From Humidesulfovibrio sp. (lineage in GTDB: Bacteria > Desulfobacterota > Desulfovibrionia > Desulfovibrionales > Desulfovibrionaceae), in assembly GCF_030689645.1 (NCBI RefSeq), contig NZ_JAUYFU010000048.1, positions 186,001-250,000 of the forward strand: DNA of 64,000 bases, read 5' to 3'. The translations under genes were made by a program, and so were the position numbers. Shown in pieces: positions 49,905 through 64,000 of the stretch. Position 1 is the first letter of the stretch; every line of letters starts with the position of its first letter. The notes beneath the pieces are model-generated. The model ran no database searches, had not been told where the DNA came from, and worked only from the letters and a program-made list of their open reading frames with translations.

Positions 49905-51641
49905 TTATTCCCCGGCGCCTTCGCACAATTCCTTCAAATGCTTGCGCGCGTAGTCAAGGCCTGCGTCAAGCTTCAGGGCCGACTCCAGGTATTCCAGAGC
50001 TTCCTCGCGCTCACCTAAAAACTTGTGGCACAGGCCAAGGTTGGCCAGATCTGGCGCGGAGCCGCTATCCAGAGTCAGCACGGCATGAAAATCGATCTTG
50101 GCCCGCTCGTATTCACCGGCCTTGAATCGGCCCACCCCACGCAGGTTAAAATACTCCTTCACTTCGCCGTCAAGCTCTATGGCTCGGTCAAGGTGCGGCA
50201 TCGCCGACTCCCAGCGGTTATTCTGAGACAGCGCATAGGCCTGATAGAAAGCACACAGGGCGCGCTCCCCTGCTCCTGGCTGGGCGGGCTCGGCCTTGGC
50301 GAAAAGCGCTGCCGCGCCATGTATGTCGCCCATGCGCAGCATCAGCAGAGCTTGGAAAAAAGGCAGATAGTATACGTCCGGCGCTACATCGGACAAAATG
50401 GAAAGCCCGGCCAGCGCCTCGTCGTCGGCCGACTCCTCGGCCAACTTGCGGCCAACAAAGAGCCCCAGACTGCGATTTTGCGTGCGCTCTCGAAAGTCGA
50501 ACCCAGGCACAAAGTTGTAGTTGGCGGGCACGTCCAGATCGGCGCGCGTGGTCTCGAGCGTATACAGGGTATAGCCTTGGGCCAGCAAACCGTCGGCCAG
50601 CCGGGACAACTCCACACGAATGTTCGCATCCTCCACGCAAGGCAGGCTGTTCAAATCGACCACAGGCCCCTTGAGCAGCCAATCAAACTGCGCCGGATCG
50701 GTGAATTTGCGCAGGCCAGAGGCCTCGTACACCCGCGCGGTCTCAAAATCACCCGCTAGCTGGGCGATCTCCGTCACTGCGCGCACCGCCGCCTTGACAG
50801 GGTTGGCTGCGGTGCCTGCCGTATAGACGATCTCGCTCAAGGCCGGAAAGGTCTTGGGGTCAAAGGCCAGCGCGGCCACGGTGGGCACGGGCATGCCCAG
50901 GCTGATGTCTTTCAGCAGCAGCAGCACGCCGTTCTTGCGAAAACGCTGGCACAAATCCTTCAACACCGGGTCGGTCAGCGTTTCTTGGTTGATAGTGGGC
51001 AGTTCTGGCGATGAACGATCGACAAGGGCCGAAACATGGCGTTCCACCAGCTCACAACCACCCTGAAGGATCGACTCCTCAGGGGTATTTCCGGCTGAGG
51101 AACCGTTAAACTCGTTCAGGGTCTTGAACCAGTCCAGCGGCACCACACACGTTTCTCCAGTAGCCACATTCAGAACTGGACAGAAGCGCCAGCGCACCAA
51201 ATCCATAAGCCGCCGGGCGTCTTCAATGGTAAGGTCATCGTCCACAGACTGACAAATCTGGGCGATGTCCATGAGCTGCGACCCGAAAAGATCTTCAGCC
51301 TCAGACCAGGTGGCCAGGGTGAAATTCGTTTCATCGGCCCAGAAGCTGAAATAGCTGAAGCGCTCCACAAGCTCCATCAGAGCCGAAGCCTCAGCCTGTT
51401 CAGGGCTCGCGCCCTTGCCCATCTGCTTGCGGGTGGGCATCACGGCCCGGGCCTCCGGTCCGCAGATGCTCAGAAAAACTGGAATGCCTAAGCGACCAGT
51501 GTCCACACGCTTGGTCTCCTCCAGCACGCCGGGACATTTCTCCTCCAACCGGGCTTTGACCAACGCCACGGTCTGAGCGGGGGAGGCCGCCTTATCCTGA
51601 TCCGCTGTGTAGACCTTGAAACAGTCCTTGAGCTTCAACAT
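49905..51641 (-). CDS. YcaO-domain protein with C-terminal TPR repeats
   Basis: This 578-residue cytoplasmic protein has a YcaO ATP-binding domain (about 40-400) with the three signature pairs: Glu90/Glu93-Arg94 in SALMELVERF, Glu197/Glu200-Arg201 in GGCELVERHV, and Glu291/Gln294 in VTEIAQLAG, preceded by GKGASPEQAEASA. Residues about 430-578 are TPR-like helices. YcaO enzymes phosphorylate backbone amides to form azolines, thioamides or amidines; E. coli YcaO is linked to S12 methylthiolation. No leader peptide or TfuA partner is visible. AAGGAG fixes the start at 51641. dsrC is the next gene downstream. Confidence 0.9.
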   Translation of the reverse strand: MLKLKDCFKVYTADQDKAASPAQTVALVKARLEEKCPGVLEETKRVDTGRLGIPVFLSICGPEARAVMPTRKQMGKGASPEQAEASALMELVERFSYFSFWADETNFTLATWSEAEDLFGSQLMDIAQICQSVDDDLTIEDARRLMDLVRWRFCPVLNVATGETCVVPLDWFKTLNEFNGSSAGNTPEESILQGGCELVERHVSALVDRSSPELPTINQETLTDPVLKDLCQRFRKNGVLLLLKDISLGMPVPTVAALAFDPKTFPALSEIVYTAGTAANPVKAAVRAVTEIAQLAGDFETARVYEASGLRKFTDPAQFDWLLKGPVVDLNSLPCVEDANIRVELSRLADGLLAQGYTLYTLETTRADLDVPANYNFVPGFDFRERTQNRSLGLFVGRKLAEESADDEALAGLSILSDVAPDVYYLPFFQALLMLRMGDIHGAAALFAKAEPAQPGAGERALCAFYQAYALSQNNRWESAMPHLDRAIELDGEVKEYFNLRGVGRFKAGEYERAKIDFHAVLTLDSGSAPDLANLGLCHKFLGEREEALEYLESALKLDAGLDYARKHLKELCEGAGE

Positions 51642-51655
51642 GGATGCTCCTTGCA

Positions 51656-51687
51656 GAAAGAAGCCCGGAATGGACATTCCGGGCTTC
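51656..51687 (-). terminator. Terminator between the Tim44-like gene and the YcaO gene
   Basis: gaagcccggaat/attccgggcttc (12 bases) with a 4-base loop lies 26 bases after the Tim44-like stop. On the minus strand it is followed by TTTC. It sits 19 bases before the YcaO start, so it may also act as a leader hairpin. Confidence 0.8.
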
Positions 51688-51712
51688 TGTTTCATGTGAA
51701 TGGCAAATGGAG

Positions 51713-52693
51713 CTAACTGTCCAGTTGCTGGATGCCCTCAAGACGCCAGTTGGCATTCACGTCAGCCGTGGGGCGTGAGAAGTGCCAAACCTCGCGGATC
51801 TGCTTGGGCCGTTCCTCGCCTGCGTCCTCACGCATCAAAACGTCAAACATCACAGTAACCACAGTGTCCACACTTTCTTCCCGGAACTCCAGCAACTGGG
51901 CGTTGACCAGCAGCAGCTCTGTCTTGGAGGGGGTGGGGTCGGCGGCGGCCTGACGGCGAATCTCGGCCAAAACCTCCGGCGTGGTGAACAGGGCGATGTC
52001 ATTCAGGTCGCGACGGTCCCAGGAGTGCTGAAGACGCGCGTACACTGTTTTGGAACCTTCCAGGAACTCGTGCACATTAAAGCCCTGCGGCACGATGGGC
52101 CCAGCCGGGGCGTCTGTTGCAGCGGTTACGCCAAAGCCGCCAGTCGAAGCCTGGCCGGAATCGTTGCGCAGAGGACCCCAGCTTGTTTCCGCACGAGAGC
52201 GGGGATCTGCGGAGTGGGAGCCAGCGGAGGGAGCCGACATGGATCCCGAAGCAGCAGCGGCCTTCTTGGAGTCAGACCAGCGGCGGAAGAGCTTGTAGGC
52301 CAAGAATGCGACAAGCCCGATGAGCAGGATGTCGAACATGCCCATGCCGCCGCCAGCGCCCCAGCCACCGCCGCCACCAAAGAGCATTGAGCCGATCAGG
52401 CCGCCGGCGACCAAACCGCCAAGCCCCCACCCCATACGAGAAAACATGCCGCCCGGAGCCTGTGGCGGCGGGGTCGGCGCGGCTTGCTGGTTCATAGGAC
52501 GACTGGCCGGCGCAGTCTGTGCCGGGCCGGTAGGCGAACTGGGAGTGGCCGGGGTGTAGCTGCGGGAATAACTGCTCTTGCCACCAAAGGAACCGCCGCC
52601 GCCCACCCGCTTTGCCAAAGCCGCATCAGCAAGCAGGGCGCTCACCAGCGTCAGCGCAAGCATAGCGGAAAGGGTCTTCATCTTCGTTTTCAT
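51713..52693 (-). CDS. Tim44-like domain membrane protein
   Basis: This 326-residue protein has a signal-like hydrophobic N-terminus ending ALAKR, a Gly/Ser/Pro-rich linker (about 30-90), a glycine-rich transmembrane pair (WGLGGLVAGGLIGSMLF and GMFDILLIGLVAFLAYKLF), and a C-terminal Tim44-like domain (about 200-326). Such proteins occur widely in proteobacteria with unknown role. The start at 52693 is chosen over 52714; the next in-frame Met at 52681 is also possible. It follows a receiver-only response regulator by 17 bases. Confidence 0.85.
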   Translation of the reverse strand: MKTKMKTLSAMLALTLVSALLADAALAKRVGGGGSFGGKSSYSRSYTPATPSSPTGPAQTAPASRPMNQQAAPTPPPQAPGGMFSRMGWGLGGLVAGGLIGSMLFGGGGGWGAGGGMGMFDILLIGLVAFLAYKLFRRWSDSKKAAAASGSMSAPSAGSHSADPRSRAETSWGPLRNDSGQASTGGFGVTAATDAPAGPIVPQGFNVHEFLEGSKTVYARLQHSWDRRDLNDIALFTTPEVLAEIRRQAAADPTPSKTELLLVNAQLLEFREESVDTVVTVMFDVLMREDAGEERPKQIREVWHFSRPTADVNANWRLEGIQQLDS

Positions 52694-52710
52694 GAACCTG
52701 TATCCTCTTT

Positions 52711-53106
52711 TCAAACCTCGAAGCCGAGGCTGCCAATTGTCTCGTAGAGACGTTCTGTCAGAATAGGTTTCGTAATGTAGGCGGTTGCTCCGCCCTTATA
52801 AGCGCTCATGACTGAACGCATGTCGCCCAAAGCCGTGGTCATTATTATCTTGATTCCCTGCCCGGATCGGACTCCGGCAACCTGCTCCTGGCTGCGTATA
52901 TCCTCAAGTACTTCCTGGCCGTTCTTACGCGGCATCATAATATCCAGGCAAATGAGTTGGTAGGGCCTGCCCTCATCCACCGCAAGGCGGTAGGCGGCAA
53001 GAGCCATATCTCCATCGCCGACAACCGTACATTCGCCAAACCTGGAAAGAAGTCCAGACATGTAGCGAGCGCTGGTGCTGTCATCTTCGGCGATGAGTAT
53101 GCGCAT
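52711..53106 (-). CDS. Single-domain response regulator
   Basis: This 131-residue receiver domain has no output domain: acidic residues at 8-9, phospho-acceptor Asp55 in LICLDIMMPRKNG, Thr in IMTTALGD, and Lys in AYITKPI. AAGGGAG seven bases before the ATG at 53106 supports the start; the 48-residue upstream extension of the frame is rejected. It is probably co-transcribed with the Tim44-like gene. The partner kinase is unknown, and it resembles Desulfovibrio CheY-like regulators more than motor CheY. Confidence 0.9.
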   Translation of the reverse strand: MRILIAEDDSTSARYMSGLLSRFGECTVVGDGDMALAAYRLAVDEGRPYQLICLDIMMPRKNGQEVLEDIRSQEQVAGVRSGQGIKIIMTTALGDMRSVMSAYKGGATAYITKPILTERLYETIGSLGFEV

Positions 53107-53270
53107 GGCGTCTCTCCCTTGCCTCCATCCATATCTGAACTTCCGGCAAGAAACAATCGCTCCACATACGGCATTCGCGTGCGCCCTTGCCACAAGGGGC
53201 GAGTCGAAGTATCTGTACCCCCCAGGCCGGGTTCCCCCCAGGCCCAACACATTCTGGAGGCATACGCTTC

Positions 53271-53582
53271 ATGTCCTACTTGAGCTTTTCAGCCCAGTCC
53301 GACCTGCCCGCGAAATGGAAGGGCTGGCCGTTCCATTCCGGCGCCGGCGGCGACTGGGAAACCAGTCTCGCCACTTACGCATTCTCTTTCGTCATTCTTG
53401 CGGCCATCTGCCTTTTCCTGCGCGCGCTTTACGGCCCCAAGGGCATTTGGCGCGACAAGGAAATGGAGCGTGAGGCCGAGGAAACCCGACGCCGCGAACA
53501 CGCCCGGCTTGACTCGGACCTGCGTTCCGGGCGCATCACCCAGCAGATGTACAAACTGAAAAAGAAGGCCATCGACAGATGA
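53271..53582 (+). CDS. Small membrane protein with SHOCT-like tail
   Basis: This 103-residue protein has one transmembrane helix (LATYAFSFVILAAICLFLRAL), then a charged helix (EREAEETRRREHARLDSDL) and a C-terminal SGRITQQMYKLKKKAID that resembles the SHOCT oligomerisation motif. GGAGG lies ten bases before the ATG. It overlaps the HD gene by 4 bases (ATGA), so a joint role is possible. No other domain is seen. Confidence 0.75.
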   Translation: MSYLSFSAQSDLPAKWKGWPFHSGAGGDWETSLATYAFSFVILAAICLFLRALYGPKGIWRDKEMEREAEETRRREHARLDSDLRSGRITQQMYKLKKKAIDR

Positions 53583-54364
53583 GCGAAGCTCTTGTGCGCC
53601 TTGTGGCCGAGCGCTTCGAGACCTTTGCTGGCCAATTCCTCAACGATCCCGGCGACGACTTCGCCTTTCGACTTAAAATCGCGCACACCAAGCGCGTGCA
53701 AGCAATTTCTGAGACCATAGCCAGAGATGAAGGCCTGCCAGAGCATTTGGCCCTGGCGGCGCGCTTGGCGGCGCTGATGCACGACGTTGGGCGCTTCCCG
53801 CAATACCGTCAGTTCCGCACCTTCCGCGATCCCGATTCCGCAAACCACGCAGGCTTAAGCGTCACCCACGCCCTGCGGGAGAAACTCCTGGCCGATGTGC
53901 CCGGCAACATCCGCCGATTGGTGCTGGGCGCCACCTTTCTGCATAACAAACGCTCCTTGCCGCACCTCGCTTCCGAAGATCTCAGAACTGTGTCCAGGGT
54001 CATCCGCGACAGCGACAAGCTGGACATCTACAGCGTCATAATCGCCCATTTCTCGCAGGAGAATCCAGAACATCCCGAGGTTGCGATGAACGTCATCGAC
54101 GAGCCGAGAATGTACACCGCCCCAGTGCTGGACGCCCTGCTACGCCGGGAACCAGGCGACTACCGGACAATCGTCTACGTCAACGATTTCAAACTGATGA
54201 CCATAGGGTGGCTCTACGACCTGAACTTCCGCACATCCTGCCGCCTGCTCAAGGAACGCGCCTACCTGGACACCCTCTTCGACACCCTTCCCCGCGACGA
54301 GAAGCTTGCCCTGTTCAGGCGACAAATCTCGACAGACCTTGCCCACAGGCTTGCGGGTGCTTAA
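53579..54364 (+). CDS. HD-domain phosphohydrolase
   Basis: This 261-residue protein shows His36, the HD pair His68-Asp69 in LAALMHDVGRFPQY, and further ligands in GATFLHNK and VIRDSDKLDIY, the layout of the HD superfamily, with a divalent metal site. The substrate (nucleotide or cyclic nucleotide) cannot be read. It is coupled to the small membrane protein gene by a 4-base overlap and precedes the flavoprotein gene by 42 bases. Confidence 0.88.
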   Translation: MSEALVRLVAERFETFAGQFLNDPGDDFAFRLKIAHTKRVQAISETIARDEGLPEHLALAARLAALMHDVGRFPQYRQFRTFRDPDSANHAGLSVTHALREKLLADVPGNIRRLVLGATFLHNKRSLPHLASEDLRTVSRVIRDSDKLDIYSVIIAHFSQENPEHPEVAMNVIDEPRMYTAPVLDALLRREPGDYRTIVYVNDFKLMTIGWLYDLNFRTSCRLLKERAYLDTLFDTLPRDEKLALFRRQISTDLAHRLAGA

Positions 54365-54406
54365 CTCCGTCGCCTGACCGAACCTCCAGCCAGCCAGGGG
54401 AACCTC

Positions 54407-55336
54407 ATGGACCAGAAGCAAGTATACGACGTGGTGATTCTGGGGTGCGGCCCCGCAGGCATACAGGCAGCAATTCACGCCTCTCGCAAGAAGACAAGCG
54501 TGCTCATGCTGGGACGCCTCAACAAGAGCAGCCTGTTCTGGGCGCACGTTGAGAATTTCCTCGGCATGTTCAAAACCAGCGGCGAGGATATGCTCACCAC
54601 CGGCCTGACTCAGGCCAAGAGCTTCGGTACAGAAGTTCTTGAGGAAGACGCCCTTCGCCTCACACCTGCGGGAAGACTCTTTGAAATCGAAACCGAGAGC
54701 GGAACGCTCCTGCTGGCTCGGACGCTGATCATAGCCACCGGCACAACGCGCAACAAGCTTGGCGTCCCAGGCGAAAAGGAATTCCTTGGACGCGGCGTGT
54801 CCTACTGTGTGGATTGTGATGGCGGCTTCTTCCGAGACGAGGACGTGGCCGTTGTCGGCGGACAGAGCGCCGCAGCGGGCGGTGCGCTCACCCTGCTCCA
54901 CCTCGCCAAGAGCGTGCATATTGTAGCGGAAACCCTTGATGTATCTCCCGTGCTCCAGGCCAAGCTAGCCACAAGCGGTGCCATCCTGCACGAAGGCGTC
55001 AAGATCAAGGCTATCCACGGCGAATCGCAGGTCACCGGCCTGGAGCTTTCCGATGGCACGAACCTGCCCGTGGCCGGAGTGTTCATCGAACTCGGGGCCA
55101 AGGGCGTGCTGGAGCTGGCCTCGTCCCTTGGACTCATGCTTGATGAATCCATGAAATATATTGAGACCGACAAGAAACAGGCCACCAACGTTCCAGGCGT
55201 ATACGCCGCGGGGGACATCTGCGGCGCGCCACTGCAAATGGCGAAGGCCGTGGGCGAGGGCTGCGTTGCGGGGACAAACGCCGCCACCTACGCCAAGAAC
55301 ATGAAGCTGGCCCAGGAAGGGCCTGGCGAAGAGTAA
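54407..55336 (+). CDS. Thioredoxin-reductase-like flavoprotein lacking the usual NADPH motifs
   Basis: This 309-residue FAD protein has GCGPAG at 13-18, ATGTTRNKLGVPGE, a redox CVDC at 134-137 (CATC in typical thioredoxin reductase), and GVYAAGDICG near the C-terminus, so the FAD domain and disulfide are intact. In the pyridine-nucleotide domain the expected GGGNTA is GGQSAA (151-156), and the HRRxxxR motif for NADPH is absent (VAETLDVS instead). Ferredoxin- or F420-linked relatives of thioredoxin reductase show such losses, so an electron donor other than NADPH is inferred. It is not next to a thioredoxin gene. Confidence 0.88.
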   Translation: MDQKQVYDVVILGCGPAGIQAAIHASRKKTSVLMLGRLNKSSLFWAHVENFLGMFKTSGEDMLTTGLTQAKSFGTEVLEEDALRLTPAGRLFEIETESGTLLLARTLIIATGTTRNKLGVPGEKEFLGRGVSYCVDCDGGFFRDEDVAVVGGQSAAAGGALTLLHLAKSVHIVAETLDVSPVLQAKLATSGAILHEGVKIKAIHGESQVTGLELSDGTNLPVAGVFIELGAKGVLELASSLGLMLDESMKYIETDKKQATNVPGVYAAGDICGAPLQMAKAVGEGCVAGTNAATYAKNMKLAQEGPGEE

Positions 55337-55391
55337 CCCGCAGGCGGCGCCACATCGCAAAGGGCTGGCGGCGAACAGGGAGGACGTGGGC

Positions 55392-56933
55392 CTACTTTCG
55401 CAGCAAAGCCACCACCTGGCTCATCTTCAGCTCGCCTGTCGCGGGTCCGACGCGCACGTAATAGTGCTCTTCTTCGCCGTTTGTGACGATGACCGGGGTT
55501 TCCGCCTTCTGGCACGTGATGGCCAGAACCACATTTTCCTCAATAGTCACAGCCTGGGCGGAGACAAACCGGGCATATTCAGCCCCGATGTGCTGGTTGA
55601 ACAAATTGACAAAATGCAGAAGCAGGCGGTCTTTGCTCGGGAAGCCGTCGGCCTCGGTGCCAAGCACCGCGCCCGTGTCCTCTACTCCCACCAGCAGCAC
55701 TCCTCCCTTGGAATTCAAGAAAGCGGCGATGGTCTTGAGACATGCCAGTTCAATGCGTTTGTCGGACTTGCCAGAGTAAAGATTTGTGCGCAACGTTGAC
55801 TTGAATTCAATGTCCTCGCGCTCGCCAGCGCGAAGAAACGCATAGACATCATCCGCTGAAAGTTGGCGATCCAATCCAATGGTGAGCAGTCCCGAGCGCA
55901 AGCGTTTCCTGAGAAGCGACACAAGCCATAAGCCGACCGCGCCAGCGGCGAGACAAACGGCGGCAAGCCCCCAAAGCAGATTTGCGCCGCTCCCAATGCC
56001 TGCCTGCGCCTTGCCGCGGGGCACAGCAAAGCCAATGAACGATGCACGGTCAATAAGGGTGAGCTTGTCAAAAACTCCGCGCCACCGCTCGCCCTTCCAA
56101 CTGAACTCGACGACCTCAAGATAGCTGTTCCCGGACCTGGCGAAAGCCTCGGCCATTGCCCCGGCGGCGGCGTCCAACACGCCATCTCGCGCCGGATGAA
56201 AACCCTGCTGGTCCAGCGACCCCACGACCTTGTCGCCATATCCGAAAATGGTGACTCCCGCCTCCCTGCCAGCCAATGCGGTAAACGGAGAATCCAAGCT
56301 TGAAAGCTCTATGCCAAAAGAGACAACCAAAGGTCGCCCATTGTCATCAGGCAGCCGCAAGCTGGCGAACACCTGCCCAGGCTCCGCCCCTGCCGGCGTG
56401 CTGGACCAGACAAGGTCTCCCCCGCTTCTCCCCCTTACGTCGAAGCCCTGGGGCGCCAAGAGCCCTTCATCGGTGGCAGGGCTCAGCACAGGGCCCGCAC
56501 TCAAGGGCTGCACCATGCCTACAGCAAACGCGGCGCGGCTAGGCGGCAGAGACTCCACGCGATCCTGGCTCTTTCGTAAATAGAGCAATACATCGGAGCC
56601 ACGTGTGACGACAGCGGAGTCGATGAACCGGAGCCGCCCGACAATGGGCCTGAAAAGCCGCTCCAGCGAGACTCGCGTCAGAGGTTGCACAGAAGGATTC
56701 ACGCCATGACGCGAAAGGAAAACGGCCTCGGCCATCGAGCTGGACACCAGGGCCAGCCGCGCCTCCATCGCCTGCAGGGTCAGCAGCAAGCCGTTGCGTT
56801 CAGCGCGTGAACCCAACTCTCGAGCCATCGCCCCAAAAAGGAGCGCGAGCAGCAGCGCCACTAGGGCGACCCCCCACTGCAAAAGGCGGAACCGACCCTT
56901 GGCCATGAGCAGCAGAGGGGGAGACAACCTCAT
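55392..56933 (-). CDS. Membrane-anchored periplasmic sensor with cytoplasmic AlbA_2 (Schlafen-type) domain
   Basis: This 513-residue protein has TM1 (about 17-36), a periplasmic region of about 280 residues, TM2 (319-341), then a cytoplasmic AlbA_2 domain (about 371-500) with EREDIEFKSTL at 371-381 and NSKGGVLLVGVEDTG at 407-421. The layout is that of a sensor histidine kinase or cyclase with an AlbA_2 output in place of the kinase. AlbA_2 domains bind nucleic acid or nucleotides. Its start overlaps the MltF-like stop by 4 bases (ATGA), so the two are co-translated. The output is unknown. Confidence 0.85.
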   Translation of the reverse strand: MRLSPPLLLMAKGRFRLLQWGVALVALLLALLFGAMARELGSRAERNGLLLTLQAMEARLALVSSSMAEAVFLSRHGVNPSVQPLTRVSLERLFRPIVGRLRFIDSAVVTRGSDVLLYLRKSQDRVESLPPSRAAFAVGMVQPLSAGPVLSPATDEGLLAPQGFDVRGRSGGDLVWSSTPAGAEPGQVFASLRLPDDNGRPLVVSFGIELSSLDSPFTALAGREAGVTIFGYGDKVVGSLDQQGFHPARDGVLDAAAGAMAEAFARSGNSYLEVVEFSWKGERWRGVFDKLTLIDRASFIGFAVPRGKAQAGIGSGANLLWGLAAVCLAAGAVGLWLVSLLRKRLRSGLLTIGLDRQLSADDVYAFLRAGEREDIEFKSTLRTNLYSGKSDKRIELACLKTIAAFLNSKGGVLLVGVEDTGAVLGTEADGFPSKDRLLLHFVNLFNQHIGAEYARFVSAQAVTIEENVVLAITCQKAETPVIVTNGEEEHYYVRVGPATGELKMSQVVALLRK

Positions 56934-58459
56934 TTTTTAGCCTTCAACTCAGCACGGCCATTGCCTGAAATTCCCCGCGCCTTGTGGCTCTTGCGTTCCA
57001 GCTCACGCTGGGCGGTCAGCTTGTACGCCACATAATACTTATAGATGTTCGACACGTAGCGGACCGTTTCGATTCCGGTAACCTTGCCGGCAGCGATCTC
57101 GACATTGCCGAACCACCTGTTGTTGTCCAGGCCCATCTCGTCTGCGGTGCGGCGCATGCGGGCCATATTTCCAGGCCCGGCGTTGTAGGCGGCAAAGGCG
57201 AAAAGCATGCGATCAAGCGGCTCAACGTTCGCATCGTCAAAATAGGTGTTAATAAGATGCCTGTGATACTTCACCCCAGCATGGATGTTCGTCTCCAACT
57301 CGTGAACACGTGGCAGGTTGATGGGCGAGCCCGCTGCCGTGCTGGGCATGATCTGCATAACGCCAACGGCCCCGCGTGAGCTTCGTGCTGCCTGGTTAAG
57401 CCTCGACTCCTGGTAGGCCTGCGCGGCGATAAGCAGATAATCCAGCGAGTAGGTTTCTGCGTACTTCCTGAAGTGCTTCACGGACTTGTTGAAGCGCTTC
57501 AACTCTTGACTGGTGGTCGGATTGCGCAGATAGCCTGCCTTGCCAAAATATTTGCCCACAAGATGACCTACGGACCCTAACGCCTTGTACTCTGTAAGAA
57601 AGTCATTCAGAACCTTGCTCAACTGCGGACTGTTCGAACGCACGGCCCAGGCGACGCTTCTATCTGCAGCCAGGACAAGGTCTTCACGGACCTTGAGGTT
57701 CGGAATGACCTGCGCCCAGAGCTTGGCGCGATAATCGTCCACAACGGTGTAATCCACCACACCGGCCCCAATCAGTTCCAGGATGTCCTCAGACTCAAGA
57801 TGCTCGTCTGCTTCTTCAATAATCACTGGCTTTCGCCCAGCAGCAGCCAGGCGCTTGCTCAAGCCCAACAGGCTCTCATAGTAGCTGCTTGAACGGCGCA
57901 CATACACGCGCTTGCCGGACAGGTCATCCAGTGACTTCAAGTGTGGCGATTGATTGCCCTGAACCACGACCTCCTTCACTGTGGATGAGATAGGATTAGA
58001 GAAGTCCACCACTGCGTCGCGCGCCTCAGTGACGGTGAGGCTTGCCGCAGCAATGTCCCCCCGACCGCTTATCAGGGCAGGCAGCAGTTCGTCGCGGCGA
58101 ACCGGGATAAACACAATGCTCACGGGATACTTTCCGGTATTAAGGCGCTTATTGAGCCAAAGCTCAAAGTCCTGGAACACCATTGCCGTTACGCCGCTTG
58201 GCGCCGCGCCGTCCATGAAGAAATTTGTGCGGCTGTATGTCACAAGAACACGCAACATGCGCTTGGGCGTCAACGTGTCCAAGTCACCGACCCAGCGACT
58301 GTCCAGCATGCCTTTCACGGGGCTTTCAATTCCTGCCGAAGTCGTGGAGTCCGACGAATTCTGCGAGAAGGCCAAGCCAGGGACAAGAGCCGTGAGCAGC
58401 AGCGCCATCAGAGTGGAGAGAACCACCTTGCGGCATGGGGCATTACATTTTCGCGGCAT
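56930..58459 (-). CDS. MltF-like lytic transglycosylase with solute-binding domain
   Basis: This 509-residue exported protein has a signal peptide (about 1-32), a periplasmic amino-acid-binding-type domain (about 65-320, LRVLVTYSRTNFFM, GDIAAASLTVTEARDAVVDFS) and a C-terminal SLT domain (about 340-480) with catalytic Glu in AYQESRLNQAARS, then VGVMQIMPSTA and AAYNAGPGN. MltF cuts glycan strands; the solute-binding part regulates it in MltF of enterobacteria and Pseudomonas. AGGAGG precedes the ATG. The AlbA_2 sensor gene follows with a 4-base overlap. Confidence 0.93.
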   Translation of the reverse strand: MPRKCNAPCRKVVLSTLMALLLTALVPGLAFSQNSSDSTTSAGIESPVKGMLDSRWVGDLDTLTPKRMLRVLVTYSRTNFFMDGAAPSGVTAMVFQDFELWLNKRLNTGKYPVSIVFIPVRRDELLPALISGRGDIAAASLTVTEARDAVVDFSNPISSTVKEVVVQGNQSPHLKSLDDLSGKRVYVRRSSSYYESLLGLSKRLAAAGRKPVIIEEADEHLESEDILELIGAGVVDYTVVDDYRAKLWAQVIPNLKVREDLVLAADRSVAWAVRSNSPQLSKVLNDFLTEYKALGSVGHLVGKYFGKAGYLRNPTTSQELKRFNKSVKHFRKYAETYSLDYLLIAAQAYQESRLNQAARSSRGAVGVMQIMPSTAAGSPINLPRVHELETNIHAGVKYHRHLINTYFDDANVEPLDRMLFAFAAYNAGPGNMARMRRTADEMGLDNNRWFGNVEIAAGKVTGIETVRYVSNIYKYYVAYKLTAQRELERKSHKARGISGNGRAELKAKK

Positions 58460-58536
58460 GAATCCTCCTGGTACAGGCCCATCTCAAATGCTGGCTGAAC
58501 TGCTCAGAGAAGATGAACACATTAAGATTAAAGCAT

Positions 58537-58577
58537 CCACCGGCCGCTAACGGTGGTCCGAAAGCGACCGGTGGTCG
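58537..58577. repeat. Tandem inverted repeats upstream of the MltF-like gene
   Basis: ccaccg/cggtgg (58537-58556, 8-base loop) and cgacc/ggtcg (58565-58577) lie side by side in the 201-base gap between the DUF3313 gene stop and the MltF-like start. They may act as a weak terminator of the first or as an operator for the second. Confidence 0.35.
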
Positions 58578-58660
58578 TAATTTTGTCGTGTCTACTGGCG
58601 CAGTGCTATACTGTGCGCTACGTTACCATCACATACCCCACGAACAGAGTTGGGGCAACT

Positions 58661-59353
58661 TTACTTGGCCTTGGCGCCCCAAGCGTCAAGAATGGCCTTC
58701 TCCCTCTGCAAGGCCCACTGTTCCATGGCCTGCTTGGTAACGCCCTGACTCTCGTAGCCCGCAGAGTCGTACTTATCACCAGCCTTTTTGCCCGCAAACA
58801 AGGCAAGCGGCTCATTGGTGACGGCATCAACAAAACGCACCTCAACAGAGCACTGGCCGACAGCAGTGTGCTTCCCGGTAACCGCCTTCTTGCCATACGA
58901 CAAGAGGATGCCAACAGGTACGATTGAGGTGATGGCGTTGCCAACAGGGTAGCTCGGCGTCACATCGGTGATGGCCGCCTGAACGCGGATCGTCTTGGGG
59001 CCAGGCGTTTCCGTGAGGGGGAACTCGATGTCCTTCAAGGCCTTCACAAGAACATCACGAAAATACTTTTGGATCACCACGAGGTCTTCCTTCTCTACGC
59101 CAGTGCGCTCATTCATCGACTGCACAGTGGGCCACAAGACAACATCGTCCACTAATATCTTGTTGTATTTTTTCGGATCAAACTTTGGATTGCGCCACTT
59201 CATTATGTTGCCGTCTTTATCCCTAGCCTTGAGCAGAGAATAGTCTTTACCCAGGAAGTGCTCTACCTTTGTTTCTGCGGCCTGCGCAGATCCAAAACCA
59301 AGCAGCACAGCCAGCATGACCAAAGTAGAAAATAATGTTGTGCCCATTTTCAT
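58661..59353 (-). CDS. DUF3313-family exported protein
   Basis: This 230-residue protein has a signal peptide (about 1-26, ending AQAAETK) and a DUF3313-like body: FDPKKYNKILVDDVVLWPT, then LVKALKDIEFPL, then VEVRFVDAVTNEPLALFAG. DUF3313 proteins are usually lipoproteins, but no lipobox cysteine follows this signal, so it is probably soluble in the periplasm. AAGGAG seven bases before the first ATG fixes the start. The function is unknown. It is preceded by a long A/T-rich gap and may have its own promoter. Confidence 0.82.
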   Translation of the reverse strand: MKMGTTLFSTLVMLAVLLGFGSAQAAETKVEHFLGKDYSLLKARDKDGNIMKWRNPKFDPKKYNKILVDDVVLWPTVQSMNERTGVEKEDLVVIQKYFRDVLVKALKDIEFPLTETPGPKTIRVQAAITDVTPSYPVGNAITSIVPVGILLSYGKKAVTGKHTAVGQCSVEVRFVDAVTNEPLALFAGKKAGDKYDSAGYESQGVTKQAMEQWALQREKAILDAWGAKAK

Positions 59354-59741
59354 TTTAGTCTCCTTTCGGTTGTATTGACCATGACATACTCGATCCTACA
59401 GACCAGCCCAAAAACTTAACAAGAGTATGCAGCAGCAACTCAACACTAAACAATAACAGGTTAATAAAATCAAGCAAGACACATAAATCACAGGCATATA
59501 AACCAACAAGAACAAAATATACTGATCTTATCAACACAGCAAATAAACTAACTGTTTTCACGTGGCATCACGGAAACAACAGCATTTTATCTTTGCAAGA
59601 TCAGGCAATGAGCAAAAGACGCATGCATCACCACCAAAAACGTCGCCAGGACCAGGCACCTAAAAAAGACCATGGTGAATATTAGCATCCTCATAAAACA
59701 AAGCAACAGCATTCTTGAGGTCTCGGCGACATGACCACCAA
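59354..59741. other. A/T-rich non-coding gap
   Basis: About 390 bases between the DUF3313 start and the hydrogenase terminator are visibly poorer in G+C than the rest, roughly 40% by eye. The plus strand is rich in A and C with few G. A 68-codon minus-strand frame at 59355-59561 has no credible ribosome-binding site or family. It is most likely the upstream control region of the DUF3313 gene. No phage, integrase or repeat sequence was seen. Confidence 0.55.
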
Positions 59742-59789
59742 AAACGTGGCGACCGGTTCGAACTACTGCTCGAACCGGTCACCACGTTT
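59742..59789 (-). terminator. Strong terminator of the hydrogenase operon
   Basis: A near-perfect stem: aaacgtgg/ccacgttt outside and gaccggttcga/tcgaaccggtc inside, with one mismatch between the two segments and an 8-base loop. On the minus strand it ends in TTTTT. It lies 49 bases after the hydA stop. Confidence 0.92.
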
Positions 59790-59807
59790 GCCAGAGGGCT
59801 AGAGGGG

Positions 59808-59832
59808 GGCATTCCTCCGGGGGAGGAATGCC
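59808..59832 (-). terminator. Second hairpin just after hydA
   Basis: ggcattcctcc/ggaggaatgcc, an 11-base perfect stem with a 3-base loop, lies 5 bases after the hydA stop. It lacks a T-run and probably protects the mRNA 3' end ahead of the true terminator. Confidence 0.7.
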
Positions 59833-59837
59833 ATCCA

Positions 59838-61262
59838 TTACTTCCTATTGAACCGCACCAGACTCCGAGCTCCGTCGTCCAGACCGCGCGCATCGATGCA
59901 GTGCGTGGAGCAGCTGATGCAGGGGTCATACGCACGCACCAGCATGGACAGCTTCAGCTCCAGCTCCTTCTCGGACAGGCCAGAAAGCTGTGGCACAAGC
60001 GCGTCCAAATCCCGCTGGATGTTGGCATGGTTCTGATTGGTGGGGATGACGCAATCGGCTTGAAAGATGCGGCCATTATCGTCGTATTCGTAGAAATGAA
60101 ACAGGATGCCGCGCGGCACTTCCACCGCGCCCGCGCCGCGCCCGGCAGAGATGCTTGGCCGGGCCGGAGCCTCTTCGCGGATGCCGCGGATGAGCAGCTC
60201 GTCAACCTGGGTGATGGCCTCCTCCACAGTATGCACGCACTCAACCAGCTGGGCGATGGTGATCAGGAAGGGATTGGTCTCGCCCTTCTTGAGGCCAAGC
60301 TTCTTGGCTGCAGCCTTGGCGCGCGGCATGAGGAAGTCGGCGTTGAGGTTGAAGCGCGCCAGGGCGCCCACCATGTATGACTCGCCTTGATTCTTGGTCC
60401 ACTTGGCGGTGGAGGTGGGGATGATGTATTCACGGGTGACGTTGCGGTACTGCCGCACCGGCCTGCGTTCGTCGCGGCTGGAGCCGATCTCGCCCCAGTA
60501 CATGGCGTATTCCGATGGGGAGACAAGAGCCACGTACTCGGTTTCGCGCTCGAACTTGGGGAACTTGTCCATGAGCCCGGCGAAGAAGTCCACAGCGAAG
60601 TCAAGATTGGGCAAAGTATCCACAAGCATGCCACGCAGGGTGACCAGGTCCTCGGTGGAGGGGAACATGGTGAAGCCGCCCGGAGTCATGCGCTGGGGAT
60701 GCGTGGTGCGGCCGCAGATGAGGCGGCTAAACTCGTTCGAGACACGTCGCGCGCCGATGAACTTGAGCACGGCTTCTTTATGTGTCTGAGCCAGGGGCAG
60801 GATGGAGTCCACGCCCATGAGGTCCGGCAGCACCAGATAGGCGATGTGCAGCAGATGACTTTGCAGGTTCTCGGCATGCAGGGCCAGGCGGCGCAAAAGG
60901 TGCGTCTGCTCGCTCACGTTGATGTTGAGCGCGTCCTCGGTGGCCTGCAGGCTGGCAAGCTGGTGGCCGATGGCGCAGATGCCGCAGATGCGCGACACGA
61001 TGTGGTGCACGTCGGTGTAGTCGCGCCCCACAAGCATGGCCTCGAAAAAGCGCGGAGCCTCGGGAACCTCCCAGCGACAGGTGGAAACGGTGCCGTCGGC
61101 CTCCACGTCCACCACTATATTGCCGTGGCCCTCCACGCGTGTGAGGTAATGGACGCGGACCTTCTTGGGTCCTGGCACGTTCTCGGGCACGGACACGGGC
61201 GTAGCCGGAGACTTGGCCTTCTTCGGCTTTGCTGTGGCGGTCTTTGCAGGTGTCTTGGCCAT
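59838..61262 (-). CDS. hydA: Group 3 [NiFe] hydrogenase large (alpha) subunit
   Basis: This 474-residue catalytic subunit has the nickel ligands RICGIC at 91-96 (Cys93, Cys96) and DPCISCSTH at 446-454 (Cys448, Cys451). The 20 residues beyond that are the expected C-terminal peptide removed by a maturation protease; no such protease gene is in the window. The first 30 residues are Ala/Lys/Pro-rich, an unusual basic extension. Together with the beta, gamma and delta subunits encoded upstream in order, it forms a soluble NAD(P)-linked hydrogenase of the sulfhydrogenase type. It is the last gene of the operon. Confidence 0.95.
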   Translation of the reverse strand: MAKTPAKTATAKPKKAKSPATPVSVPENVPGPKKVRVHYLTRVEGHGNIVVDVEADGTVSTCRWEVPEAPRFFEAMLVGRDYTDVHHIVSRICGICAIGHQLASLQATEDALNINVSEQTHLLRRLALHAENLQSHLLHIAYLVLPDLMGVDSILPLAQTHKEAVLKFIGARRVSNEFSRLICGRTTHPQRMTPGGFTMFPSTEDLVTLRGMLVDTLPNLDFAVDFFAGLMDKFPKFERETEYVALVSPSEYAMYWGEIGSSRDERRPVRQYRNVTREYIIPTSTAKWTKNQGESYMVGALARFNLNADFLMPRAKAAAKKLGLKKGETNPFLITIAQLVECVHTVEEAITQVDELLIRGIREEAPARPSISAGRGAGAVEVPRGILFHFYEYDDNGRIFQADCVIPTNQNHANIQRDLDALVPQLSGLSEKELELKLSMLVRAYDPCISCSTHCIDARGLDDGARSLVRFNRK

Positions 61263-61311
61263 GGTCTATCCTCTCCTCGTCCCGTTGCCGGGCCGGTGGC
61301 TGACGTCGATG

Positions 61312-62052
61312 CTACAGGGCCGCGCCCGTGTCGCCCAGGAAAAAACGCAGAAGATCCTGAATGGCCTTGCGGCTGGTGCCGGGCCGGTCCATGACGATGC
61401 GCGCTGCGTCGAGATTGGCGCCGGGAACAAGGCCGCGGCAGCCCCAGCAGTGGGCGCCCTGGCTCACGCAGGCCGCCTTGCAGCCCGCTCGGGTGATGAT
61501 ACCCAGGCACATGCGGCCCATCTCGTAACGGCAAACGTTGCCCGCCTGCTTGCACTCCACGCACACCGGGAAGTCCGGTATCCAGGGCGTGCGGCCCAGG
61601 AGCAGCTCCTTGGTGATGCGAGCGAACTCAGCGGGGTCGATGGGACAGCCGGGAATCTCGGCGTCCACAGTGACCACGCTTTTGAGCGGGCGGGCGGCGT
61701 ATGTGCTGAACCAGCGGGCGCTGTTGCCGTAGACTTCCTCCCGGTACACGTTCTCGGCCAGGAAGTTCTTGAGGCAGTTGATGCCGCCAATGGCCGCGCA
61801 GGCGCCCAGGGCCACAAGCACCTTGGCGTTTTTGCGGATCTCCTTCAGGCGTATCTCGTCCTCCGGCCTGGTGATGGAGCCTTCGATGAAGGCCACGTCG
61901 TAGTCGTCGGAGTGGCCGGTGGCCACCTCGCGGAAGCTCACCACCTCAACGTGCCCCAGGATATCGAGCAGGCGCTCCTCCAGGTTGGCTATCTGAAGCT
62001 GGTCGCCCTCGCATCCGGCGAAGTCGAAGAAGGCTATTCTTGGTTTTGCCAT
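61312..62052 (-). CDS. hydD: Group 3 [NiFe] hydrogenase small (delta) subunit
   Basis: This 246-residue Fe-S subunit has AGCEGDQ near residue 13 and further Cys in LGACAAIGG, IPGCPIDPAEF and FPVCVECKQAGNVC, ligands of the proximal and medial clusters. There is no twin-arginine signal, which places the enzyme in the cytoplasm. It passes electrons from the nickel site to the beta and gamma subunits. It precedes hydA by 49 bases and follows hydG by 21. Confidence 0.93.
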   Translation of the reverse strand: MAKPRIAFFDFAGCEGDQLQIANLEERLLDILGHVEVVSFREVATGHSDDYDVAFIEGSITRPEDEIRLKEIRKNAKVLVALGACAAIGGINCLKNFLAENVYREEVYGNSARWFSTYAARPLKSVVTVDAEIPGCPIDPAEFARITKELLLGRTPWIPDFPVCVECKQAGNVCRYEMGRMCLGIITRAGCKAACVSQGAHCWGCRGLVPGANLDAARIVMDRPGTSRKAIQDLLRFFLGDTGAAL

Positions 62053-62073
62053 GACTGTCCCCTCCGGCCGCGG

Positions 62074-62907
62074 CTAGATGGCTTCCTGGTAGGCCTCGAT
62101 GTCCGTGTAGCAGAACACGGGGCCGTCGATGCAGGTGTTGAGCTCGTTGATCTGGCAGTGGCCGCACTTGCCCAGGCCGCACTTCATCTTTCGCTCAAGG
62201 GAGACGAAGATCTGGTCCGAGGCGATGCCCTTTTTGCGGCATTCGGCTATGACGAAGCGGTACATGATCGGGGGACCGACCATGGCCACAAATGTGTTGC
62301 CAGGATCAAGCTCGGCCTTAGGCAGAAGCGTCGTTATGACACCCACATTGCCCTTCCAGGTGTCGTCCGGCATGTCTACCGTCTCCAGCACCTCAATGTC
62401 GCCGCTTTTGGCGAGGTCGGCGATCTCGTCGACGAAAATGCGCTCCTTGGGCTCGCGCGTACCCACCATGAGCACCATGCGGCCAAACTCGTCGCGGTGG
62501 CGCAACTGATAAAAAAGGAGCGAGCGCAAAGGGATGTACCCCAGGCCGCCAGCCACGATGAGCACGTCCTTGCCCACGAACTTCATAACCGGAAACGAGC
62601 TGCCGTAAGGGCCGCGCAGACCCACCTTAGCGCCAGGCTCAAGGGCGTGCAGGGCGCCTGTCACAGCGCCGATGCGCCGCACGGCGATCTCGAAGGTGTT
62701 GTGCGTGCGCCGCGGAGGCGAGCTGATGGAGAACGGTGCCTCGCCGATGCCGTAAACGGACAGGTTCACGAACTGGCCTGGCTTGTGCGCCAGCGGCTTG
62801 CCGTTGTCCTGCTCGAAGGTGAAGCGGGTGACGAAGTCGGATAGCTGGGTTTTCTCCACCAGCGTAACCGGACGCGGCACATACGGCGAGAAGAGTTTAG
62901 TGTTCAT
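62074..62907 (-). CDS. hydG: Hydrogenase gamma subunit (FAD/NAD(P)-binding, 2Fe-2S)
   Basis: This 277-residue ferredoxin-NADP reductase-type protein shows the FAD-contacting APFSISSPP, the nucleotide-binding GGLGYIPLRSL, and a C-terminal 2Fe-2S motif CGLGKCGHCQ plus a fourth Cys. It links the hydrogenase to NAD(P). GGAGGAG before the ATG at 62907 fixes the start; the long upstream frame is a shadow of hydB. It overlaps hydB by 11 bases. Confidence 0.94.
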   Translation of the reverse strand: MNTKLFSPYVPRPVTLVEKTQLSDFVTRFTFEQDNGKPLAHKPGQFVNLSVYGIGEAPFSISSPPRRTHNTFEIAVRRIGAVTGALHALEPGAKVGLRGPYGSSFPVMKFVGKDVLIVAGGLGYIPLRSLLFYQLRHRDEFGRMVLMVGTREPKERIFVDEIADLAKSGDIEVLETVDMPDDTWKGNVGVITTLLPKAELDPGNTFVAMVGPPIMYRFVIAECRKKGIASDQIFVSLERKMKCGLGKCGHCQINELNTCIDGPVFCYTDIEAYQEAI

Positions 62908-63943
62908 GCACGGTCTCCTCCCAAAGCTCGTTAAAGACCTTGAGGGGGTTGGCGATGCCAGCGGTGCAGGCGCGCACGCAGCGCCCGCAGCCCACGCAGC
63001 CAAGCTCCCCGATCTTGTCGTAAATGTATTTGCCCTTGCGGAAGTACCGGTGGCGGTAACGATCCTGAGCCTTGGGCCGGAAGTTGTGGTTGCCCGCAAC
63101 CTTGGCGAAGCTCTCCAGCATGCAGCCGTCCCACTCGCGATAGCGGATGCCCTCTTCAAGCAGGTCGTCAGCCTCCTCGCGGATGTCGAAGCAATAGCAG
63201 GTGGGGCACACCAGATTGCACGAGCCGCAGGCCAGGCACATCTGTGAGTAGCGACGCCAAAGCGGAGAATCCCAGCACTTGGCCAGCAGGCGCGGGGTTT
63301 CCTCCCAGTTGTAACGCAGACCGCTTCTGCGGGCCTTGAACAGAATGCGCGCCTTGGCGCGGCGCGCGCCTTCCTTGTCGCCAGCAGTGGAAAGCAGGAG
63401 AGGACCGCCCATGGCAAGGAGTTCCTCGCCACGCACCGACCCGACCTCCACAGTGAAAGCAGCGGGACCGATCTTGGTCCAGTAAAGATCGTAGCCGTGG
63501 GCCGCCGTAGCTGCCCCCACAGTGGCCCAAAAGGCCGCAGGCGAAACCGTGAGCGGTTCAAAGGCCATGATCACCGTGGCAGCGCGACGGCGAACGTAAT
63601 TCTGATCTGGCGCGCCGGACTCAAGCAACTGGTCCAATTGATTGATAGCTTTGACGTCGTACGGGTGCACGCCGAAAAGGATCTGCGGAGGGGCCTCGAA
63701 CACTGGCGCTGCCTCGCAGGTCTTGAGATTGAAGGTGATGAGCGTTTCGCGCGGAGGCAAAAGAAAGCGCTTGGGCGAATTGTAAGCAACGTCGAAGTCC
63801 CAGGCGATCTCCAGGCCCTTTTTCCAGGGCACCAGATCGTAAAAACCTTCGCGCAGCTTTGCCGGAACATGGAGCGCATGCTGCTGGCTCCATTTCTCAA
63901 ACAGCCCAGGCAGCTGTTCCTTGTACACTGTGTACGTCGTCAT
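62897..63943 (-). CDS. hydB: Hydrogenase beta subunit (2x4Fe-4S)
   Basis: This 348-residue subunit has two ferredoxin-type clusters: CLACGSCNLVCPTCYC near residue 243 and CVGCGRCVRACTAGI near residue 317. It carries electrons between the delta and gamma subunits; Pyrococcus HydB was described as sulfite-reductase-like. GGAGGG before the ATG at 63943 fixes the start. It is the first hydrogenase gene in the window, and transcription comes from beyond the right edge or from the last 57 bases. Confidence 0.93.
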   Translation of the reverse strand: MTTYTVYKEQLPGLFEKWSQQHALHVPAKLREGFYDLVPWKKGLEIAWDFDVAYNSPKRFLLPPRETLITFNLKTCEAAPVFEAPPQILFGVHPYDVKAINQLDQLLESGAPDQNYVRRRAATVIMAFEPLTVSPAAFWATVGAATAAHGYDLYWTKIGPAAFTVEVGSVRGEELLAMGGPLLLSTAGDKEGARRAKARILFKARRSGLRYNWEETPRLLAKCWDSPLWRRYSQMCLACGSCNLVCPTCYCFDIREEADDLLEEGIRYREWDGCMLESFAKVAGNHNFRPKAQDRYRHRYFRKGKYIYDKIGELGCVGCGRCVRACTAGIANPLKVFNELWEETVHEH

Positions 63944-64000
63944 TGTTTCCCTCCGGGAGCGGATGGCTGTGACTCTACGGTGCAACTCATTAGGTCATTA

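Follow-up and report, generated by a model that had tools for sequence, protein, structure and literature searches.

The protein P0001 is encoded in a stretch of 64,000 nucleotides of Humidesulfovibrio sp. (Desulfovibrionaceae; contig NZ_JAUYFU010000048.1, positions 186,001 to 250,000 of the forward strand; this whole stretch is called the window below). It carries a C-terminal AlbA_2 domain of the Schlafen type behind two transmembrane (TM) segments, between which a periplasmic sensor of dCache-like fold is predicted. We estimate the probability at about one half that P0001 is a ligand-gated dCache receptor with a membrane-tethered Schlafen-type ribonuclease (RNase) as its output. The architecture, the predicted folds, the conservation of the putative catalytic triad, the alignment with SLFN13 and the spread of the family were computed and are described below.

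P0001 would be a one-component transmembrane receptor. Its periplasmic dCache-like sensor, anchored by two helices, would bind a small ligand or a periplasmic protein, and the second helix would pass the signal to the AlbA_2 domain, which would lie in the cytoplasm, tethered to the membrane. This domain may act as a metal-dependent ribonuclease of the Schlafen/SAMD9 type on tRNA or rRNA, with Glu371, Glu376 and Asp419 as the triad, and translation would thereby slow down in answer to conditions outside the cell. What we infer here comprises catalysis, substrate, ligand, dimerisation and the direction, on or off, in which the ligand controls the output.

AlbA_2 domain and sensor of P0001

The domain SLFN_AlbA_2 (PF04326) was detected in P0001 with an E-value of 7.6e-18 and 65.6 bits, against a cut-off of 25.3, and P0001 is the single protein of the window's genome with this domain at E ≤ 0.001. 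No kinase or GGDEF domain was found in P0001, for which Pfam gives AlbA_2 alone at E ≤ 1, and there was no Pfam match to HAMP. The original prediction, with AlbA_2 standing where a kinase or cyclase would follow a periplasmic sensor, is supported.

Relatives were collected from two sources. Searching 288 genomes of the taxonomic family (E ≤ 1e-10) gave 51 genomes with one P0001 match each, 47 of which were read in wide context (the window and sets of 9 and 37 loci; G109, G289, G290 and G296 were left out). An alignment scan of named genomes gave at least 438 relatives, of which the best 80 were kept, so that no prevalence is claimed; 79 of these 80 named loci yielded an open reading frame (ORF) with the match. 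At least four named loci (L156, L178, L212 and L220) repeat genomes among the 47, and the 127 loci other than the window are therefore not independent.

In an alignment of 48 proteins (that of the window and 47 others, including L050 of genome G084 from another family), the invariant residues include G370, E371, E376, F377, K378, R382, K400, N407, G410, G411, D419 and R494. The AlbA_2 residues had been expected to be conserved among relatives, and this is what the alignment shows. The triad is also present in 78 of the 79 proteins from named loci, the exception being a truncated ORF of 206 amino acids.

A profile of 44 AlbA_2 domains was compared with the PDB and matched 15 sequences at E ≤ 0.1. 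Fourteen were SLFN proteins (2.2e-7 to 7.5e-4), led by SLFN13 (named Schlafen 8 in the file; 2.2e-7), SLFN14 (4.6e-7), SLFN12 (1e-6) and SLFN11 (1.1e-6), and one was RecG-related (0.015). Five of the alignments were inspected; four span both Glu positions, and several lower-ranked chains begin after them. In 5yd0 (SLFN13), chain positions 218, 223 and 261 are the aligned counterparts of E371, E376 and D419, and D419 is aligned in a further case as well. The spacing of 5 and 38 residues in 5yd0 equals that of SLFN13 E205, E210 and D248, from which we infer a numbering offset of 13. Mutation of any of these three residues diminished nuclease activity, according to excerpts of the SLFN13 study (PMC5862951), and the equivalents E198 and D243 of SAMD9L are described, in the portion available of another paper, as required for antiviral and translation-blocking effects (PMC11221667).

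The model of the AlbA_2 domain has a predicted local distance difference test score (pLDDT) of 96.1. VIA placed 3lmm at the top (Z 13.7), followed by a SAMD9 DNA complex (13.1) and the SAMD9 tRNase domain (12.6), with SLFN entries from 10.7 to 7.1. All of the 20 top entries (Z 13.7 to 7.1) are SLFN, SAMD9, DIP2311 (3lmm) or RecG-related; the next one, of another kind, has a Z of 5.4.

In the full P0001 model (mean pLDDT 79.3, predicted TM-score 0.56) the first helix is long and two parts are of mixed alpha/beta structure; residues 145–171, with a pLDDT under 50, were left uninterpreted. For the sensor, VIA ranks the dCache domains of kinases and chemoreceptors first, with 3lif at Z 15.3 (root-mean-square deviation 3.3 over 228 aligned residues), 3lic at 15.0 and PctD at 14.7, and the sensor is accordingly predicted to be dCache-like. 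Pfam was run on 49 relatives, hand-picked from the 48 and the 79 proteins, and found dCache_1 in 18 and MCP-like_PDC_1 in 11, two sets that may overlap. The layout with two TM segments recurs in 42 of the 48 and 67 of the 79 proteins examined. P0001 shares 85.1% identity with its relative in genome G009 over AlbA_2 and 58.5% over the sensor, and 82.5% and 54.8% with that in G006. Over 41 relatives the means are 47.7% for AlbA_2 and 16.6% for the sensor, the latter from a weak alignment since the sensors are poorly alignable at that distance. Judged by these identities, a sensor diverging faster than AlbA_2 is the pattern of one output serving many inputs.

Family spread and gene neighbourhoods

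Across the phylum, 22 of 297 genomes match P0001 at E ≤ 1e-30, the window's included, about half of them over little beyond the AlbA_2 end. A first scan of the named genomes with the P0001 sequence alone found no relative. The best 80 of the at least 438 relatives come from records titled Desulfobacterota groups, Gammaproteobacteria, Verrucomicrobiota/Kiritimatiellales, Phycisphaerae and others. AlbA_2 was found by Pfam in all 49 proteins scanned, Response_reg in three and GmrSD_N in one.

The three proteins with Response_reg are taken to be L191, identified by name, and L200 and L216, judged from their sequences. Each is encoded 2–15 bp after a hybrid histidine kinase, which has MCP-like_PDC_1 above the cut-off in all three cases and dCache_1 in one. 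A receiver-AlbA_2 protein behind a PDC/dCache hybrid kinase is a two-component form of the same output. The records of these three loci, and of L218 with a truncated ORF, are titled Verrucomicrobiota, Verrucomicrobiales and Phycisphaerae. We tentatively propose, at somewhat less than even odds, that a broad bacterial receptor family uses a Schlafen-type ribonuclease output, with dCache driving AlbA_2 either directly via a TM helix or by way of a histidine kinase plus a response regulator-AlbA_2 protein, and outside ligands determining how fast tRNA or rRNA is cut at the membrane.

In one genus (g5; 30 genomes with a match, 27 loci read) the receptor gene lies directly after phoH-ybeY in all 27 loci, with Pfam names taken from L093; ybeY is the gene of an endoribonuclease. 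Most of these loci then run on to genes read from their sequences as argF, argG, argH and ftsH. The YbeY/PhoH neighbourhood fits an RNA target and probably counts as one event. An ancestral phoH-ybeY link was considered and dropped because in the window's genome phoH, ybeY and an argF-like gene follow one another with no receptor gene between them. There, ybeY lies about 11 kb from P0001; in G009 and G006 it is on another contig than the receptor gene, so the nearness was treated as chance. Neighbours of other relatives are Na+/H+ antiporters, Usp, MscS and a SpoIIE-type phosphatase.

Solute-binding genes accompany a few relatives. In five of the 27 g5 loci (L082, L084, L092, L098 and L115; Pfam was run on L082 only), a Peripla_BP_6 gene stands between the receptor gene and the argF-like gene. 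In L051 (8575–10828) and L109, AlbA_2 proteins of about 415 amino acids without TM segments are encoded beside a Bmp-type solute-binding gene, with a 14-base ORF overlap in L051, the locus on which Pfam was run. An ATP12-like N-terminus of these TM-less relatives, an idea taken from the sequence, received no backing from Pfam and was dropped. We treat a LuxP/LuxQ-like theme among the solute-binding neighbours as a lead only (the five g5 loci, probably one event; L221; and the Bmp-type genes at L051 and L109). In L050 (6354–8612) the C-terminal AlbA_2 is joined to a HEC-05/GmrSD-like N-terminal part, in a restriction-modification-like locus with HsdM.

The transglycosylase gene P0002 and the locus

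P0001 overlaps the upstream gene P0002 by four bases. The original prediction described this overlap between the genes of an exported transglycosylase with a solute-binding domain and of a two-helix sensor with AlbA_2, and frames, Pfam and hydropathy agree with it: P0002 has SBP_bac_3 and SLT domains and a single hydrophobic segment, at the N-terminus, and its SLT domain scores 67.3 in Pfam against a cut-off of 21.3. Its order of SBP_bac_3 followed by SLT is that of MltF. It differs from MltF in remaining under the curated cut-off (NF008112; 187 against 354 bits, matched over amino acids 61–489) and in having no conserved partnership with the receptor P0001. Residue Glu351 is taken to be the catalytic Glu of the SLT domain. 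The coordinates of both genes are given in Table 1.

Table 1. Features of the P0001–P0002 locus, in window positions
Feature	Position	Strand	Description
P0001	55392-56933	minus	open frame, 513 amino acids
TM helix 1 of P0001 (residues 17-35)	56829-56885	minus	hydropathy; within model helix 12-77
Periplasmic sensor of P0001 (residues 36-322)	55968-56828	minus	predicted dCache fold (model); residues 145-171 of low confidence
TM helix 2 of P0001 (residues 323-341)	55911-55967	minus	hydropathy; within model helix 316-350
AlbA_2 domain of P0001 (residues 371-499)	55437-55823	minus	Pfam SLFN_AlbA_2; fold of SAMD9 tRNase and SLFN domains
Glu371 codon	55821-55823	minus	aligned with SLFN13 E205; invariant 48/48
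Glu376 codon	55806-55808	minus	aligned with SLFN13 E210; invariant 48/48
Asp419 codon	55677-55679	minus	aligned with SLFN13 D248; invariant 48/48
P0002	56930-58459	minus	open frame, 509 amino acids
SBP_bac_3 domain of P0002 (residues 107-307)	57539-58141	minus	Pfam E 1.8e-16
SLT transglycosylase domain of P0002 (residues 330-441)	57137-57472	minus	Pfam E 1.1e-18
Glu351 codon of P0002	57407-57409	minus	Glu in 33/33 homologous copies
ATGA overlap, P0002 stop and P0001 start	56930-56933	minus	4 bases common to both frames
GAAGG, possible ribosome-binding site of P0001	56941-56945	minus	inside the end of P0002; inferred from sequence

The GAAGG motif precedes the ATG of P0001 by 7 nt. A scan for promoters gave 2 sites against 1.7 in shuffles and one for terminator-like sites 8 against 4.8 (standard deviation 2.6); neither was used for any reading.

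Matches to each gene recur in the taxonomic family more than expected by chance, P0001 in 51 and P0002 (E ≤ 1e-30) in 40 of the 288 genomes. Both genes are above these thresholds in 27 genomes and adjacent in one, that of the window; in 13 of the other 26 they share a contig, separated by a linear distance of 395 kb or more, and in 13 they occupy separate contigs. By tblastn at E ≤ 1e-3, P0002 was found in one of the 128 P0001-family sequences, the window, and in none of the 127 others, some of which are short contigs. The 41 places of P0002 outside the window's genome were followed either in wide loci (33) or via the distance table only (8), and no P0001 match at E ≤ 1 was found in the 32 loci that carry these 33 copies. 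The nearest P0001 relative, in G009 (66% identical), lies between Usp and a divergent gene for a DUF6538 protein; the next, in G006 (64%), lies between AsmA and a gene judged GroEL-like by its sequence only. In the window's genus, 3 of 15 genomes have a P0001 match, some of the rest being incomplete.

The pair of genes is thus not conserved, and the proposed coupling of receptor and transglycosylase was rejected as a general feature. Because, among the genomes examined, the adjacency is found in that of the window alone and the closest relatives have other neighbours, the coupling is local to the lineage; at most, the receptor has in the transglycosylase gene a local companion in an operon, not a conserved partner.

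Upstream of P0002, after a gap of 201 bp, a DUF3313 gene (58661–59353) lies on the same strand; tblastn found none in the 127 other P0001-family loci. The G+C content dips to 0.478 at 59000–59999, against 0.55–0.65 over the remainder of 50000–63999. Genome G045 carries two MltF-like homologues of P0002 (L054, 8525–14722; 50% and 49% identical), with match starts about 4.9 kb apart.

Alternative functions and relation to known systems

Several points weigh against a ligand-gated RNase receptor. P0001 itself has no Pfam dCache match, so that the dCache call rests on the model and on the relatives; the sensor identities come from the weak alignment mentioned above; and the two-TM layout is missing in 6 of the 48 and 12 of the 79 relatives. 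The phoH-ybeY link is limited to one genus, probably reflects one event and is not seen in the window's genome. SLFN proteins proper carry two SLFN lobes per chain; Pfam finds no second AlbA_2 copy in P0001, and the five SLFN chains aligned to the profile each show a second, weak match. Moreover, most AlbA_2 proteins carry the E/E/D motif, hence conservation of the triad does not by itself separate a nuclease from a binder, and a domain that only binds is the main rival.

Under that rival AlbA_2 would be a non-catalytic nucleic-acid binder and the receptor a membrane-bound regulator of transcription or translation, gripping or releasing DNA or RNA when a ligand binds. The SAMD9 domain 7ksp, solved with DNA, is among the nearest folds, and SLFN5 is described in an excerpt as binding tRNA without cleaving it (PMC11221667), in contrast with the title of entry 7cux (SLFN5), which states single-stranded RNA cleaving. 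However, the RNase triad keeps its three carboxylates in every one of the 48 proteins, beyond what binding alone would demand, and Pfam finds no further cytoplasmic DNA-binding domain in P0001. We consider binding without cleavage unlikely, at roughly half the weight of the ribonuclease receptor.

The original prediction saw in the gene pair a sensor of wall damage, in which the MltF-like protein would sense or release wall fragments and pass them to P0001. The four-base overlap makes a shared mRNA plausible, an SBP_bac_3 gene stands 134 bp upstream in L221, and Peripla_BP_6 is found downstream in the five g5 loci. Beyond the local overlap, nothing backs this idea: the genes adjoin in one of the 27 genomes, P0002 is absent at E ≤ 1e-3 from the 127 other loci, some of them short contigs, the nearest relatives are flanked by other genes, and the solute-binding neighbours are few and of differing families. 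It thus appears improbable. We give similarly little credence to an envelope-watching anti-phage device that would feel phage adsorption or injection in the periplasm and abort infection by tRNA cutting by the Schlafen domain. Such a role is suggested by the prokaryotic Schlafens, described in part of a paper as anti-phage RNases (PMC12839542), and by the one relative in 49 with GmrSD_N, taken as L050, where PADLOC reports HEC-05 at 8.1e-38 and an HsdM gene is present; the case for defence is confined to these two. The DUF6538 gene, presumably an integrase, also adjoins the G009 copy. Yet housekeeping and stress functions prevail among the named neighbours (phoH-ybeY, Na+/H+ antiporters, Usp, MscS), and at E ≤ 0.01 PADLOC gives P0001 a single, weak match, to pAgo (7.9e-4), in the AlbA_2 part.

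Taken singly, AlbA_2, Schlafen RNases, dCache receptors and MltF have each been described before. P0001 shares with dCache histidine kinases, diguanylate cyclases and chemoreceptors (3lif, 3lic, PctD) the long first helix, the double PAS-like periplasmic fold and the second TM helix, but its output is AlbA_2 instead of a kinase, GGDEF or MCP domain, and HAMP is lacking by Pfam. With SLFN11, SLFN13, SLFN14 and SAMD9/SAMD9L it shares the AlbA_2 fold and the E/E/D triad, whereas these proteins are from animals and have either two SLFN lobes or large domains of other kinds. We know of no Schlafen or SAMD9 protein in which a sensor of periplasmic type precedes the domain. For Schlafen RNases and SAMD9/SAMD9L, excerpts of two papers (PMC5862951, PMC11221667) describe the cleavage of RNA and the control of translation as functions. 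Prokaryotic Schlafen-family RNases with a minimal kinase and a winged helix-turn-helix in BREX-related loci (PMC12839542, in part) likewise have a bacterial Schlafen-family domain; they are described as defence-linked, and P0001 differs in its sensor, two TM helices and neighbours. No description of a Cache-Schlafen receptor was found among the titles and abstract openings listed from the open-licence PMC literature. A survey took its Cache domains from proteins whose output domains were known, and the terms AlbA and AAA_4 are absent from its main text (PMC4822843). An inhibitor and an anti-inhibitor of MltF are described in the abstract of another study, neither being a receptor of the P0001 kind (PMC10746161).

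The outputs of bacterial transmembrane receptors form a short list: phosphotransfer, cyclic nucleotides, chemotaxis, phosphatases and DNA binding. If P0001 is an RNA-cutting receptor, it would add to these the control of translation by tRNA or rRNA cleavage; the records in which its family occurs bear the labels of sulfate reducers, purple sulfur bacteria and Verrucomicrobiota. The SLFN and SAMD9 nucleases would then have a counterpart in bacteria whose sensory input is defined, and the antiviral nucleases of animals would share their catalytic domain with ordinary environmental signalling in bacteria.

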